From Chlamydiota bacterium (GTDB taxonomy: Bacteria > Patescibacteriota > Saccharimonadia > Saccharimonadales > UBA4665): DNA of 41,655 nt. This document shows positions 17,660-34,630 of this stretch, piece after piece. Location of the stretch: NCBI GenBank assembly GCA_903970425.1, contig CAJCIR010000036.1, positions 1-41,655 of the forward strand, given 5' to 3'. Each line of letters begins with the position of its first letter. Position 1 is the stretch's first letter. The notes beneath the pieces were generated by a model that saw nothing but the letters and a program-made list of their open reading frames with translations, made no database searches and was not told where the DNA came from. Made by a program: the position numbers and the translations under genes.

Positions 17660-17665
17660 ATTACT

Positions 17666-17804
17666 GGCTGGGAACTACCGAAAGAATGATTTTCTAATAA
17701 CATATGTACGGGAGTTCGATATTTTTGGAGACCGTGGTCTCCAAGTGAGAACACCCACCTGGTGTAAATCAGGTTAATCATATCGGAGTAACCCCAGCTT
17801 TTCT
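17666..17804 (+). ncRNA. Rod-shaped structured RNA, possible 6S RNA
   Basis: The two ends pair: GCTGGG (17667-17672) with CCCAGC (17793-17798), then ACT/AGT, CCGA/TCGG and ATGATT/AATCAT toward the centre. Inside are a perfect hairpin TTGGAGAC-CGTG-GTCTCCAA and a small ACCTG/CAGGT hairpin. The closing stem is followed by TTTTCTT, so it can also terminate. A long rod with a central open region and about 139 bases fits a short 6S RNA, but I cannot confirm the family. tRNA-Pro follows after 7 bases. Confidence 0.45.
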
Positions 17805-19389: not shown

Positions 19390-19584
19390 TTATACTCCCA
19401 GGTTCAGCTTAATGTTTTTGGCGTTAGCACCATCAACAGTCTGAAAACTAGTAATCCTTCTCTTACGTGAACCACTTTTCTTCTGTAAAAAGTGATTGCC
19501 ATTAACATGACGGGTTCGAACTTTACCGTTTTTGGAAACTTTAACGCGGTCTTTGGTGCCGCTATGAGTCTTTAGCTTTGGCAT
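19390..19584 (-). CDS. rpmI: 50S ribosomal protein bL35
   Basis: The 64 residues start MPKLKTHSGTKDRVKVSKNG and include NHFLQKKSGSRKRR, the L35 pattern. Its ATG overlaps the end of infC by 23 bp and is preceded by AAGGAG, so it is coupled to IF3 translation. Confidence 0.95.
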   Translation of the reverse strand: MPKLKTHSGTKDRVKVSKNGKVRTRHVNGNHFLQKKSGSRKRRITSFQTVDGANAKNIKLNLGV

Positions 19585-20092
19585 GTTGATTGCTCCTTAT
19601 AACAAAACTGAGTTGTTTACCAGCAAGCTGGGGTTGTTGATCGACGGTAATAGCTTCTCCTAGTCTGGCGATAATCTTTTCGGCTAATTTAAAGCCTAAT
19701 TCCTTATGAGCCAGTTCGCGTCCCCGATAAAATACCGTAAGTTTAGCCTTGTGTCCAGCTTCTAGGAAGCCAGAGACCTTATTGAGCTTAACATCTAGGT
19801 CATGATCGCTAATCTTCATACCGAATCGCATTTCCTTTATCTCGAGAGATTTAGCGTTACGCTTGCTCTTTTGAGTTTGTTTAGTGCGTTGGTAGTTGTA
19901 TTTACCCCAGTCTACTATCTTAGCGACGGGGGGGTTAGCGTCAGGAGATATTTCAACTAGGTCTAAACCTTTGTCCTCGGCTAGCTGAATTGCTTCAGCT
20001 CTTGAATAAACACCGAGTTGGCTTCCGTCTTCGTCAATAACTCTTAGCTGTGGTGCCCGAATAGCACTATTCAGGCGAGTAGTCTTGCTAAT
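19562..20092 (-). CDS. infC: Translation initiation factor IF-3, ATT start
   Basis: The frame continues upstream of the internal ATG at 19831 to an ATT at 20092, preceded by AGGAG with 8-base spacing. This gives 176 residues, the normal IF3 length. The N-domain reads APQLRVIDEDGSQLGVYSRA, then EAIQLAEDKGLDLVEISPDA and PPVAKIVDWGKY; the C-domain begins KSLEIKEMRFGMKISDHDL. A shorter start would delete the whole N-domain. IF3 checks start codons and keeps subunits apart. An ATT start is known in E. coli infC, where IF3 discriminates against it and so limits its own synthesis. It leads the operon with rpmI and rplT. Confidence 0.93.
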   Translation of the reverse strand: MSKTTRLNSAIRAPQLRVIDEDGSQLGVYSRAEAIQLAEDKGLDLVEISPDANPPVAKIVDWGKYNYQRTKQTQKSKRNAKSLEIKEMRFGMKISDHDLDVKLNKVSGFLEAGHKAKLTVFYRGRELAHKELGFKLAEKIIARLGEAITVDQQPQLAGKQLSFVIRSNQHAKAKDS

Positions 20093-20133: not shown

Positions 20134-20162
20134 ATTATAACAGATGAGCTAACAGAGATCAA
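20134..20162 (-). promoter_or_regulatory. Promoter of infC-rpmI-rplT
   Basis: TTGATC (20157-20162), a 17-base spacer and TATAAT (20134-20139) lie on the minus strand. The leader to the ATT start is about 35 bases and carries AGGAG. Confidence 0.7.
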
Positions 20163-20209
20163 GATAGATTAGGCGTAAGCACCTAACATTTAGTTAGGGA
20201 GTAGACCCT

Positions 20210-20372
20210 AAAAAGAAAAGCAGCTTGCTGTTGGGCAAGCTGCTTATTTTAGTGTTATTGGTTTTTGGTTGAAGTTTTGCGTTGTTTCTTTTTCAAGGAA
20301 CAACGGCTTGCGAGAAGCCGTTGTTACATTGTCTTTTTGTTTTTGAGCACTTTTTTTATTCAAGTGCTGACC
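20210..20372 (-). ncRNA. Candidate novel small RNA with three hairpins and A/C-rich linkers
   Basis: Read on the minus strand from the TTGACA/TATAAG promoter, the roughly 160-base transcript has hairpin A (AGCACTT/AAGTGCT, 20346-20368), hairpin B (11 bp, AACAACGGCTT with AAGCCGTTGTT, 20299-20325, loop of 5) and hairpin C (11 bp, AAGCAGCTTGC with GCAAGCTGCTT, 20218-20245, loop of 6), then TTCTTTTT as a terminator tail. The linkers of about 20 and 53 bases are rich in A and C and almost free of G, so they should stay single-stranded. There is no ORF and no resemblance to SRP, 6S or tmRNA that I can see. It ends before the infC promoter. Confidence 0.55.
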
Positions 20373-20376
20373 CTAT

Positions 20377-20404
20377 CTTATAGAATGCATGAATTACCTG
20401 TCAA
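20377..20404 (-). promoter_or_regulatory. Promoter of candidate small RNA
   Basis: On the minus strand TTGACA (20399-20404), a 16-base spacer and TATAAG (20377-20382) lead directly into the three-hairpin transcript. Confidence 0.6.
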
Positions 20405-20487
20405 TAACAATAATGCATAAACAATATAAAAGCTGTGCATAACTTTTAGTTTAGCTGCCTGAATGCTATAAAAACCCACAAATTTGA

Positions 20488-20637
20488 CTAATTTTCCGTA
20501 GGTCTACGTGTCATGAAATGCTTTGTCCGGTTGACCAATCCAACTAGTAGGGCATCATTATTTAAGTACTGAGCAATAATGGTTGGATTGAACGCATTAG
20601 ATGCATTAGCTTGCCCTTGGCTAAGGCCTCCAGACAC
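20488..20637 (-). CDS. Possible 49-residue protein or gene remnant
   Basis: From a GTG at 20637 the frame reads MSGGLSQGQANASNAFNPTI, then IAQYLNNDALLVGLVNRTKH and FMTRRPTEN before a TAG. Composition is protein-like, with an amphipathic middle. There is no ribosome site and a stop lies three codons upstream, so it may be the surviving C-terminal end of a decayed gene. Family unknown. Confidence 0.25.
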   Translation of the reverse strand: MSGGLSQGQANASNAFNPTIIAQYLNNDALLVGLVNRTKHFMTRRPTEN

Positions 20638-21007
20638 TGGCTGCTAAAGCTTGATGACCATGTACGGAGTGGTCTACTACGCTTTTATGTTAGTAAGTGA
20701 TCCACATGGCCATTCTTTGTAATTAGCTTGGCATATTAATCGGCGCGACTAAGACGTGCATAAGTCGTGATTAGGACACGTGTCTAGGGGCTTTAATAGT
20801 ACGTCAAAAGTTGGCGTTTTCAGGCAAAATAATTTTGGCTATATGGCTCAGATTTTTTATAGCAATGGGGGTACTCAGGCAGCTCTAAATGCGATCTTTT
20901 TTGTACTCACAAATTGACTGCTAAAATCGCATTATTTACGTAGAAAAATAGAAGTCTAGCAATTAAATAGGACGACTAAATCTGCGAATTTTTAACGCTA
21001 ATGCTGA

Positions 21008-21039
21008 ATTAAAACGACTAGAAAAACTAGTATTTTAAT
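21008..21039. repeat. Short inverted repeat
   Basis: ATTAAAA-CG-ACTAG and CTAGT-A-TTTTAAT flank five A bases, forming an AT-rich hairpin. There is no gene next to it and no U-tract. It could be a protein-binding palindrome or chance. Confidence 0.3.
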
Positions 21040-21138
21040 CAAATTGAACATAGCAACATGTACATAGTTGTTTAAATAGCTACGAATTTAAATGGACAAA
21101 TTACAGACACAGGAAGTCAATATTACTACAATATCCGA

Positions 21139-21167
21139 TTGACGTATGCACCGGTTTGTGCTAAGTT
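21139..21167 (+). promoter_or_regulatory. Promoter of second candidate small RNA
   Basis: TTGACG (21139-21144), a 17-base spacer and TAAGTT (21162-21167). No coding start follows within 240 bases, whereas a structured stretch and a terminator do. Confidence 0.5.
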
Positions 21168-21173
21168 AGACGG

Positions 21174-21377
21174 GTAAGTTAAAAACACAAAAACTTGCAA
21201 ACACGGTCGGGGGGCCGATATCGCTCTGACTACCAAATCGGTAGAAAGAGCGGTCAGTCACGCTAAGGACGGTAAGTGCTATAAATTCATTTTTTACGAG
21301 CAGATTTACCGTCCAAAGCTCTAAGTATATTTTCAAAAAAATGGGCGCTAGAATAACAAAATTCTGACGCCTTTTTT
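21174..21377 (+). ncRNA. Candidate novel structured RNA of about 200 nt
   Basis: Between the promoter at 21139 and an intrinsic terminator, several helices can form: AAGTT/AACTT near the 5' end; GCTCT (21223) with AGAGC (21247), enclosing TACC/GGTA; and a perfect 9-bp pair GGACGGTAA (21267-21275) with TTACCGTCC (21306-21314). The terminator is GGCG-CT-AGAAT / ATTCT-GA-CGCC (21344-21371) followed by TTTTTT. No credible ORF is on this strand. It could instead be a long leader of the gene at 21415, but the terminator stands in between. Family unknown. Confidence 0.5.
21344..21377 (+). terminator. Intrinsic terminator of second candidate RNA
   Basis: GGCG-CT-AGAAT, a 6-base loop, and ATTCT-GA-CGCC are followed by six T. 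It stands 38 bases before the next ATG. Confidence 0.7.
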
Positions 21378-21414
21378 GTTTCAGTAGCAATACTAATGTG
21401 TCATCATTATTAAT

Positions 21415-21789
21415 ATGAAAACTATACGAAAAGGTGCAATTGTAATAATTCTATTTATTCTTGGCTTAATGCTATTTACCTTAACTAACCCTCAATCGGC
21501 TCCTGCGGTAATATTGGTGGTTCCGTTTATACTGCTGTACGTATTATTCCTATACACCTTTAACGTCATCTTAAAACGTAATATTAAGTCTTTATCCACC
21601 AGAGAAAACAGGAGAAAAAGAGTGTCCATAGCCGCCATAATAGCTGCTCTACCGGTAATGCTTTTAGCTTTGCAGTCCATAGGTCAGCTGACTACTAGAG
21701 ACGTTATTACCATAGTTATATTAATAACCGTCTTGGGTTTTTACATTACCCGTATATCTTTTACGAAAAACCAGTCCATACAGGATTAA
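21415..21789 (+). CDS. Four-helix membrane protein, unknown function (124 aa)
   Basis: After MKTIRKG there are four hydrophobic segments (about 7-25, 30-50, 72-92 and 97-115) separated by basic loops (KRNIKSLSTRENRRKR). No catalytic or transport motif is visible. The ATG follows an AT-rich stretch with no Shine-Dalgarno site, and a leaderless start is possible. It lies 38 bases after the terminator of the candidate RNA and 31 bp before the next gene, which has its own TATAAT. I do not recognise the family. Confidence 0.65.
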   Translation: MKTIRKGAIVIILFILGLMLFTLTNPQSAPAVILVVPFILLYVLFLYTFNVILKRNIKSLSTRENRRKRVSIAAIIAALPVMLLALQSIGQLTTRDVITIVILITVLGFYITRISFTKNQSIQD

Positions 21790-33517: not shown

Positions 33518-34630
33518 CTATGGTTGTTGCCAGGCTTGGCGGAACGCATAAAAAGCTGGGGTTGGGCGGTATCTGCTGTCAAACAGGTAAGAATGCGAAT
33601 CTGTACCACCGAGCCATTTAAGCAGGTTATCTTTATCGGTAGTCCCAAATTCATCGAAGCTGACACAAGATTCTGACTCTATGCAGGCTCTCACCATATT
33701 GTAGTTTATCTGTGATTCTAACTGATTTTTATAAGTGTTAGTTCCTTTAACGGAGTTAATATTAACGTCAAATTCTGTAACGTAGACGGGAAGTCCTAGA
33801 GCCTTAAATCGCTGCATGTTTTGTATGACTGCCGTCACGCTTGGAGGATCGGCGGCATTAATATGCATCTGCATCCCTATTCCTTCGATAGGCACACCTC
33901 TTGCCAGTGCTCCTTTGACATAATTGTATTCAGCATTAGATACGCTGTTTTCGGTCTCGTTATCGAAGTCGTTAAGTAGTAATTTGGCTTTAGGATCTGC
34001 TTGATGGGCCCAAATGAAAGAGTCGTCAATATATGTGGTGCCTTCACCGATATGGTCTGCCCACCAATCATCGAGACCATAGATATGCTGAGATCGAGTA
34101 AATGCTTCGTTTACCACTGTCCACTCAGCTACTTGACCCTTGTAGTGTCCTACGACAGTACTAATGTCCTGATGAAGGATGTTGAGTAGCTGAGCTTGAG
34201 TGTAGTTGCCACTTTTTAACCAGTTGGGAAGAAAATTCTTTTCACCCCATACCAGGTGGTGTATTTGAACTGGCATGTCATTAGCTTTGGCAAAAGCCAT
34301 GACCTTATTGATCTTAGTGTAGTTATAGGTGGTTGGAGAGGGGCGAAGCGTGTTCCATTGGGCCTCACCATCGATAGTTACAAAGGAATATTGTGACTTG
34401 ATGATATCCGTGTAGGGTTTTTCTGATAGGCGACTCGCCTCTACTCTCGTGCCTAGAGCTATGTCGTGAGCAGTGGCAAGGTCTTTAAGGGGTGGAGCAG
34501 GTAAGTCAGGGGCGCTTACGGAAAAATACCAATACAAGAAAGTTATGAGTATCACAACTACTGGGGTTAATAATAGAATTAACAGCTTATGAGATTTGTG
34601 TTTGCGTTTGTTTTTTTGTTTTTGTCCCAC
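33518..34630 (-). CDS. Membrane-anchored GH10 endo-xylanase-like protein (370 aa)
   Basis: A basic N-terminus (GQKQKNKRKHKSHK) and one helix (about 16-36) anchor the protein facing outward. The rest is a single GH10 barrel: IHHLVWGEKN (first substrate His/Trp motif), EWTVVNEAF with the acid/base Glu175, and LPVYVTEFDVN with the nucleophile Glu286. Both catalytic Glu are intact, so it should be active on beta-1,4-xylan or a related glycan. The start GTG 34630 follows TACTAT by six bases, suggesting a leaderless message. A xylan target is odd for an animal-associated epibiont and would suit an environmental lineage. Confidence 0.87.
   Translation of the reverse strand: MGQKQKNKRKHKSHKLLILLLTPVVVILITFLYWYFSVSAPDLPAPPLKDLATAHDIALGTRVEASRLSEKPYTDIIKSQYSFVTIDGEAQWNTLRPSPTTYNYTKINKVMAFAKANDMPVQIHHLVWGEKNFLPNWLKSGNYTQAQLLNILHQDISTVVGHYKGQVAEWTVVNEAFTRSQHIYGLDDWWADHIGEGTTYIDDSFIWAHQADPKAKLLLNDFDNETENSVSNAEYNYVKGALARGVPIEGIGMQMHINAADPPSVTAVIQNMQRFKALGLPVYVTEFDVNINSVKGTNTYKNQLESQINYNMVRACIESESCVSFDEFGTTDKDNLLKWLGGTDSHSYLFDSRYRPTPAFYAFRQAWQQP

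Follow-up and report, generated by a model that had tools for sequence, protein, structure and literature searches.

A very probable class-wide small RNA gene of Saccharibacteria and the unpaired motif it has in common with mRNA leaders

Introduction

The DNA upstream of the translation gene infC in an ultra-small parasitic bacterium of the order Saccharimonadales raises two questions: whether it holds an independent small RNA (sRNA) gene, and what such an RNA might do. The earlier note had read the locus as an independent sRNA, and this overall reading is supported by conservation in 55 of 60 relatives and by covariation. We found no description of this sRNA in the open-access literature searched (by title and start of abstract, with subscription papers and most preprints outside the scope), and non-coding or small RNAs go unmentioned, under the terms used, in main texts on cultured Saccharibacteria (PMC10768705, PMC10633639). 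Positions below refer to the window, i.e. the whole stretch of DNA that was analysed (41,655 nucleotides).

Results

An sRNA gene with its own promoter and terminator

The minus strand carries an independent small RNA gene at 20404-20208 (Table 1). It has a promoter and a terminator of its own and, between them, two conserved hairpins; the RNA is ~160 nt long in the window and shorter in other lineages. The promoter reads TTGACA (20404-20399), then 16 bases, then TATAAG (20382-20377) on the minus strand. Promoter-like and terminator-like patterns by themselves are near chance in the region (8 vs. 6.3 expected and 4 vs. 2.6 expected, respectively), and the conclusive evidence is therefore conservation together with covariation; that the sRNA signals are mere chance patterns is ruled out by conservation.

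Table 1. Positions of the sRNA gene and of neighbouring features in the window
Feature	Position	Strand	Remark
DnaA-box-like site TTATGCACA	20434..20442	-	its start lies 38 bp before that of the -35 element
-35 element TTGACA	20399..20404	-	TTGAC in 55/55 relatives and 40/40 further loci
-10 region TATAAGAT	20375..20382	-	alignment of relatives
Hairpin 1, 7 bp, loop with TGAAYAAA core	20346..20368	-	20368-20362 pairs with 20352-20346
Near-invariant unpaired CAAAAACAAAAA	20334..20345	-	exact in 65/95 loci, variant in 28, neither in 2
Hairpin 2, 11 bp, loop CTCGC	20299..20325	-	20325-20315 pairs with 20309-20299; covariation
G-poor A/C-rich linker, sequence not conserved	20246..20298	-	between hairpin 2 and terminator
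Intrinsic terminator of the sRNA	20208..20245	-	11-bp stem, 20245-20235 with 20228-20218, then TTCTTTTT
Separate promoter-like site of infC, TTGATC-17-TATAAT	20134..20162	-	sequence pattern
infC (IF-3), next gene on the sRNA strand	19565..20083	-	Pfam IF3_N and IF3_C; start codon placed by eye
Divergent operon start region	21139-21378	+	promoter-like TTGACG-17-TAAGTT, leader ~200 nt
Divergent-operon leader hairpin, GTAAGT and ACTTGC around loop TAAAAACACAAAA	21174..21198	+	variant of the relatives' motif hairpin
Terminator-like hairpin with T run, divergent leader	~21342-21378	+	just before the ATG at 21415 (by eye)

infC is followed by the genes for L35 and then L20. In 95 loci scored for infC and comM, the first of the two downstream is comM in 64 and infC in 19; one locus (L053) has comM in opposite orientation, and 11 loci, all from other orders of the class, have neither gene in the flank (ComM was identified by its Mg-chelatase domains). 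As the first downstream gene varies across loci, the sRNA is not a leader of infC or comM. The earlier note had placed a consensus promoter TTGACA-16-TATAAG on the minus strand, had described the gene as upstream of infC with a promoter and terminator of its own, and had seen no known bacterial RNA family in it: the first claim held, with coordinates confirmed and TTGAC in all 55 relatives; the second held in the window, with comM coming first in 64 of 95 loci; and the third held, as no family of Rfam 15 was matched.

Two observations concern the surroundings. Some 650 bp between the sRNA promoter and the divergent operon (20480-21130), a stretch that is shorter in many relatives, contain no convincing gene. 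A tmRNA gene (ARAGORN) lies near the sRNA in L093, L098, L104, L110, L130 and L065, and converges on the sRNA in some loci of family f26.

Hairpin 2 is established by covariation

The fold of the window's sRNA is more stable than all 200 dinucleotide shuffles (z -5.0). RNAalifold on 55 aligned loci, one per genome, predicted 16 pairs, of which 10 show substitutions in both partners; 99.2% of the pairing cells in these 55 sequences can pair, vs. 94.0% in column shuffles and 30-60% with the partner slid, and 56 cells are double-changed, vs. 12.4 in shuffles. Nearly all of this signal comes from hairpin 2, which has double changes at 9 of 10 modelled pairs among the 55 relatives and at 10 of 11 pairs among 46 class-wide sequences, and which is thus established by covariation. 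CTCGCA, which includes the loop, occurs in 79 of 95 loci, and the loop changes outside the window's order.

Hairpin 1 is retained, though its form varies. Most sequences form a helix between GCACUU and AAGUGC; in the 55 sequences, 98.6% of the cells of the main helix are paired, with double changes at one pair. This first-stem form is poor class-wide (70.2% paired); another, longer stem takes its place in family f26 and in two further genomes, with 97.8% of cells paired and double changes at five of seven pairs, six of the seven existing only in 15 of 46 rows. The third hairpin is a terminator only, with stem sequences unrelated among genomes; short forms (20 of 95 loci by a crude count, 9 of 16 f26 loci) have no third hairpin, their U run following directly after hairpin 2. 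Between hairpin 2 and the terminator, G makes up 6% of the window's linker; in 32 long forms the linker composition is 55% A, 20% C, 18.5% T and 6.7% G.

The earlier note had claimed a 7-bp and two 11-bp hairpins within ~160 bases, the last with a U-tail, and this held, the stems being located and TTCTTTTT following the third; its inclusion of the third hairpin in the structure of the RNA is corrected by the unrelated stems and by the short forms. Its proposed check, covariation of both 11-bp stems in relatives, was carried out here. Hairpin 2 passed, with double changes at 9 of 10 pairs; the third stem is unrelated among genomes, and only hairpin 2 is supported. That the linkers are nearly free of G held for the one between hairpin 2 and the terminator (6% G), and that they are simply kept open held in part: the first linker is unpaired but holds the near-invariant CAAAAACAAAAA. 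Promoter, hairpins, terminator, the single-stranded CAAAAACAAAAA and independence from neighbouring genes are shown by sequence and conservation; no transcript has been demonstrated.

The gene is near-universal in the class and apparently confined to it

A DNA search found the sRNA in 55 of 60 relatives, the genome of the window included. A covariance model built on 55 loci (R1) matched 162 of 294 genomes of the class, and a second model built on 46 diverse rows (R2) matched 261 of 294 genomes and 111 of 128 genera; the E-values of R2 are rough, and since its training rows were taken from those genomes, R2 matches them by construction. The 95 loci comprise the 55 from relatives and 40 hand-chosen from the class-wide R1 matches, and are therefore not a random sample; 46 of them, picked by hand for diversity, make up alignment A2 and underlie model R2. 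The gene is single-copy in nearly all genomes with a match. A second, truncated copy of the G016 locus (L056, at the end of G016:C80) is an assembly artefact that runs into what we take to be Nextera adapter sequence, and was excluded from all counts of 55 or 95.

Presence outside the class was rejected. R1 matched 19 of 286 genomes of the phylum, all inside the class; R2 matched 31 of 286, and its seven weak matches outside the class (E 4e-5 to 7e-4) were judged false by eye, resembling A-rich gene ends with terminators and having no TTGACA at the right place. The exact core pattern occurs in 59 stretches of the sequence collection searched: the records titled by clade are Saccharibacteria, Saccharimonadales or Saccharimonas, except for one Parcubacteria and one Patescibacteria group, and the remainder are titled only bacterium or uncultured bacterium. 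Carriage by phages was likewise rejected, as the five viral contigs with the 18-mer have it inside coding sequence (by reading translations), and no plasmid match to the sRNA was found.

In Rfam 15, no family reached its gathering score; the best on the sRNA strand was CyaR, with 20.5 of 47 bits (E 1.1). Identity with 6S RNA, tmRNA or RNase P was rejected, with no RF00013 match at the sRNA. Sub-threshold 6S matches occur elsewhere: one in the window at 17662-17804 (+), just ahead of a tRNA-Pro (32.3 of 46.4 bits, E ~3e-5), and others in G037, G008, G005 and G018, on the same contig as the sRNA and at most ~4.5 kb away. It is possible that these are a candidate 6S RNA of the class, separate from the sRNA described here.

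In our judgement the locus is very likely a stand-alone, independent and class-wide sRNA gene, a judgement made without expression data.

A DnaA-box-like site precedes the promoter in the window's order

Upstream of the promoter lies a DnaA-box-like site that the earlier note had missed. Exact TTATNCACA, which we take to be the consensus DnaA box, occurs there in 49 of the 55 relatives' loci, which represent the window's order (50 counting one looser match), and in 12 of 40 further loci. The start distances from box to TTGAC, obtained for 61 boxes by subtracting listed positions, are 36-40 bp for 48, 27-30 bp for five, 45-48 bp for four and other values for four. These classes differ by about one helical turn, which would fit an activator bound to one face of the helix, an inference made from sequence alone and without binding data. 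TTATNCACA is rare in this genome (13 in 802,801 bases, fewer than the control), and the arrangement TTATNCACA-N22-32-TTGAC has a single occurrence in the whole genome.

A DnaA-regulated gene is expected to have a box at a conserved position upstream of its promoter, and this holds within the window's order only: 6 of 55 members of the order lack the exact box, and only 3 of 16 sampled f26 loci and 1 of 11 loci from other orders have it. With this distribution, an ancestral mechanism is unlikely to have included the box. Exact TTATNCACA is absent from the two dnaA loci scanned, which neither supports nor excludes the DnaA reading; in nine genomes the sRNA locus and dnaA share a contig and are ~115-190 kb apart (by subtraction). 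We lean, by a small margin, towards a DnaA input into sRNA transcription in the window's order, with DnaA binding inferred and not shown.

The unpaired motif recurs in mRNA leaders

The most conserved unpaired part of the sRNA is CAAAAACAAAAA, whose core AAAAACAAAAA occurs twice in the window vs. 0.04 expected by chance. The second window copy of this A-rich motif (34613-34623, minus strand) was rejected as a further site, being coding sequence at the start of a lysine-rich ORF. Of 30 leaders of rsmH, in the dcw cluster, 27 carry CAAAAACAAAAA in sense orientation (shuffles: mean 0.45, largest 3) and none carries its complement; 230 nt were taken for each leader where available, and three loci with <170 nt upstream were retained. 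Beside the motif, 27 of the 30 leaders have a conserved stretch containing ACTCCAC, the same letters as in the linker of the f26 RNAs.

A protein encoded by the divergent operon resembles TraG/AAA proteins weakly, with matches under the curated cut-offs. The leader of this operon has an intact hairpin with the motif in the loop (GTAAGT..CAAAAACAAAAA..ACTTAC) in 22 of 95 loci, and exact or nearly exact copies of the 12-mer are present in 28 of the 94 loci with at least 600 nt of flank; intact CAAAAACAAAAA is missing from most divergent leaders, the window's own included. Some relatives' divergent leaders have TATCGCTCT in common. Judged by eye, the start of this operon possibly is a regulated (attenuated) leader. 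In 90 kb of other f26 loci, CAAAAACAAAAA sites are found only in the sRNA (three rows) and in one leader near it.

The leaders carry the same letters as the sRNA and not complementary ones, and direct pairing between sRNA and leaders through CAAAAACAAAAA is therefore excluded. A shared binder is the simplest reading of a motif common to the sRNA and the leaders; no binding protein has been demonstrated. A common A-rich 12-mer is no proof of a common partner.

The f26 linker and a conserved element between mraZ and rsmH

The linker of the f26 RNAs, AAAAACUCCAC, resembles an anti-Shine-Dalgarno sequence; ACTCCA is present in 13 of 16 f26 RNAs vs. 2 of 79 others. Sites complementary to this linker are not enriched in the four genomes counted (34 vs. 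36 in the control). The complement of AAAAACUCCAC led to a conserved element between mraZ and rsmH in 53 of 61 f26 genomes. This sole conserved complementary site reads antisense to mraZ-rsmH and is unchanged in G091 and G151, whose sRNA is without ACUCCAC; followed up as a pairing seed, the linker led no further, its conserved complement not varying with the sRNA.

The mraZ-rsmH element is strongly conserved (sense strand ACACCTCCCAAAACTCCACCTCACACATAAGTCTCTCA) and lies inside an inverted repeat (L177-L206; main-order loci L207-L236); it has no match in Rfam. Non-Watson-Crick pairs of its closing stem, read on the G-rich strand, are A-C in 33 cases vs. G-U in 13, a bias that points to the sense strand of mraZ-rsmH (counted in 22 of 29 loci; four without stem ends and three poorly paired were left out, and L202 was left out of the locus comparison). 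Folding energy favours the opposite strand in 29 of 29, a measure biased by composition. The element is likely a structured rsmH leader, with its strand unsettled. Among the 25 loci of L207-L236 for which at least 1,300 nt of upstream sequence are available, 16 have a DnaA-box-like TGTGNATAA/TTATNCACA ahead of mraZ, and it is possible that these boxes reflect DnaA control of the dcw cluster.

Discussion

In the mechanism that we prefer, DnaA bound to the upstream box, always on one face of the helix, would set sRNA transcription in the window's order, and the sRNA level would thereby follow replication initiation; the sRNA would serve as a decoy that displays CAAAAACAAAAA as in the leaders of rsmH and of the divergent TraG-like ATPase operon, and would compete with those leaders for an unidentified leader-binding factor. 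The decoy step is inferred, with no transcript, partner or target demonstrated; we rank it as less likely than the DnaA step, and as clearly less likely than not. Decoy and base-pairing readings are not separated by the evidence, and no genome-wide partner search stands behind either.

The rival that survives best, and remains possible, is a trans-acting antisense RNA that acts on ribosome-binding sites of mRNAs via loop 2 (CUCGC) or the f26 linker AAAAACUCCAC. The architecture is typical of a base-pairing sRNA; ACTCCA is present in 13 of 16 f26 RNAs and CTCGCA in 79 of 95 loci. Against it, complements of the f26 linker, the only segment tested, are at control level (34 vs. 36); the conserved complementary site is antisense to mraZ-rsmH and constant where the sRNA is without ACUCCAC; and the rsmH leader holds the linker motif itself and not its complement. 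A protein-binding structural or housekeeping RNA that is not a decoy (e.g. a scaffold or a ribosome-associated RNA) would agree with near-universal presence in the class and with near-invariant unpaired segments; nothing specific speaks against it, although loop 2 changes in other orders, and we regard it as unlikely. Less likely still is that the locus works as DNA, titrating DnaA or timing replication, with the RNA incidental: the box stands at a fixed distance and the locus ~115-190 kb from dnaA in nine genomes, but the RNA stems covary and persist in lineages without the box, and the box is single and far from dnaA. Regulation of the downstream gene in cis, by a leader or attenuator comparable to the L20 leader of infC-rpmI-rplT, would agree with the terminator at the end of the RNA and with its place ahead of infC, seen in the window and in 19 of 95 loci. 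This reading is mostly ruled out by the separate promoter-like site of infC, the lack of an Rfam match, and the neighbours (of 95 loci, 64 have comM first and 11 have neither gene, and in L053 comM lies on the other strand).

A bolder form of the decoy mechanism, which we regard as improbable, has a DnaA-driven decoy made at replication initiation that would mimic the CAAAAACAAAAA site of the dcw and divergent-operon leaders. If true, it would couple chromosome replication to division and to a transfer or secretion machinery via one unidentified RNA-binding factor, a cell-cycle circuit private to these epibiotic bacteria. If the motif marks a common RNA-binding factor, it would open post-transcriptional control of division and secretion in Saccharibacteria to study; a near-universal sRNA would rank among the most conserved non-coding genes of a class of ultra-small epibionts. 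Saccharibacteria can now be mutated (PMC10633639), and the role of the sRNA is therefore directly testable.

Among known systems, the L20 leader of infC-rpmI-rplT resembles this locus in its position upstream of infC in the window; unlike that leader, the sRNA has its own promoter and terminator, mostly has comM between it and infC, and matches no Rfam family. 6S RNA (RF00013) is alike in being a small RNA outside coding genes, with sub-threshold candidates close by, and the 6S candidate in the window is separate. Decoys of the CsrB/RsmZ type work by displaying the motif of a binder of mRNA leaders, as the sRNA would in the proposed mechanism. The sRNA differs from them in having no array of GGA loops and usually one motif copy per RNA; as for a motif common to decoy and regulated leaders, 27 of 30 rsmH leaders contain the 12-mer, whose binder is unidentified. 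For the proposed link to the cell cycle, two comparisons are available: EcpR1 of the alphaproteobacterium Sinorhizobium, a conserved trans-acting sRNA that is reported to modulate cell cycle regulation (PMC4414408), is alike in being conserved and in the cell-cycle role proposed here, and no homology is claimed; CcnA of Caulobacter is a non-coding RNA tied to replication control that is reported to act on cell-cycle regulators (PMC8959179), and differs in lying at the origin and in being presumably activated by CtrA and not DnaA, whereas the sRNA here lies ~115-190 kb from dnaA. Both show that sRNAs can serve cell-cycle control elsewhere (PMC8959179, PMC4414408).
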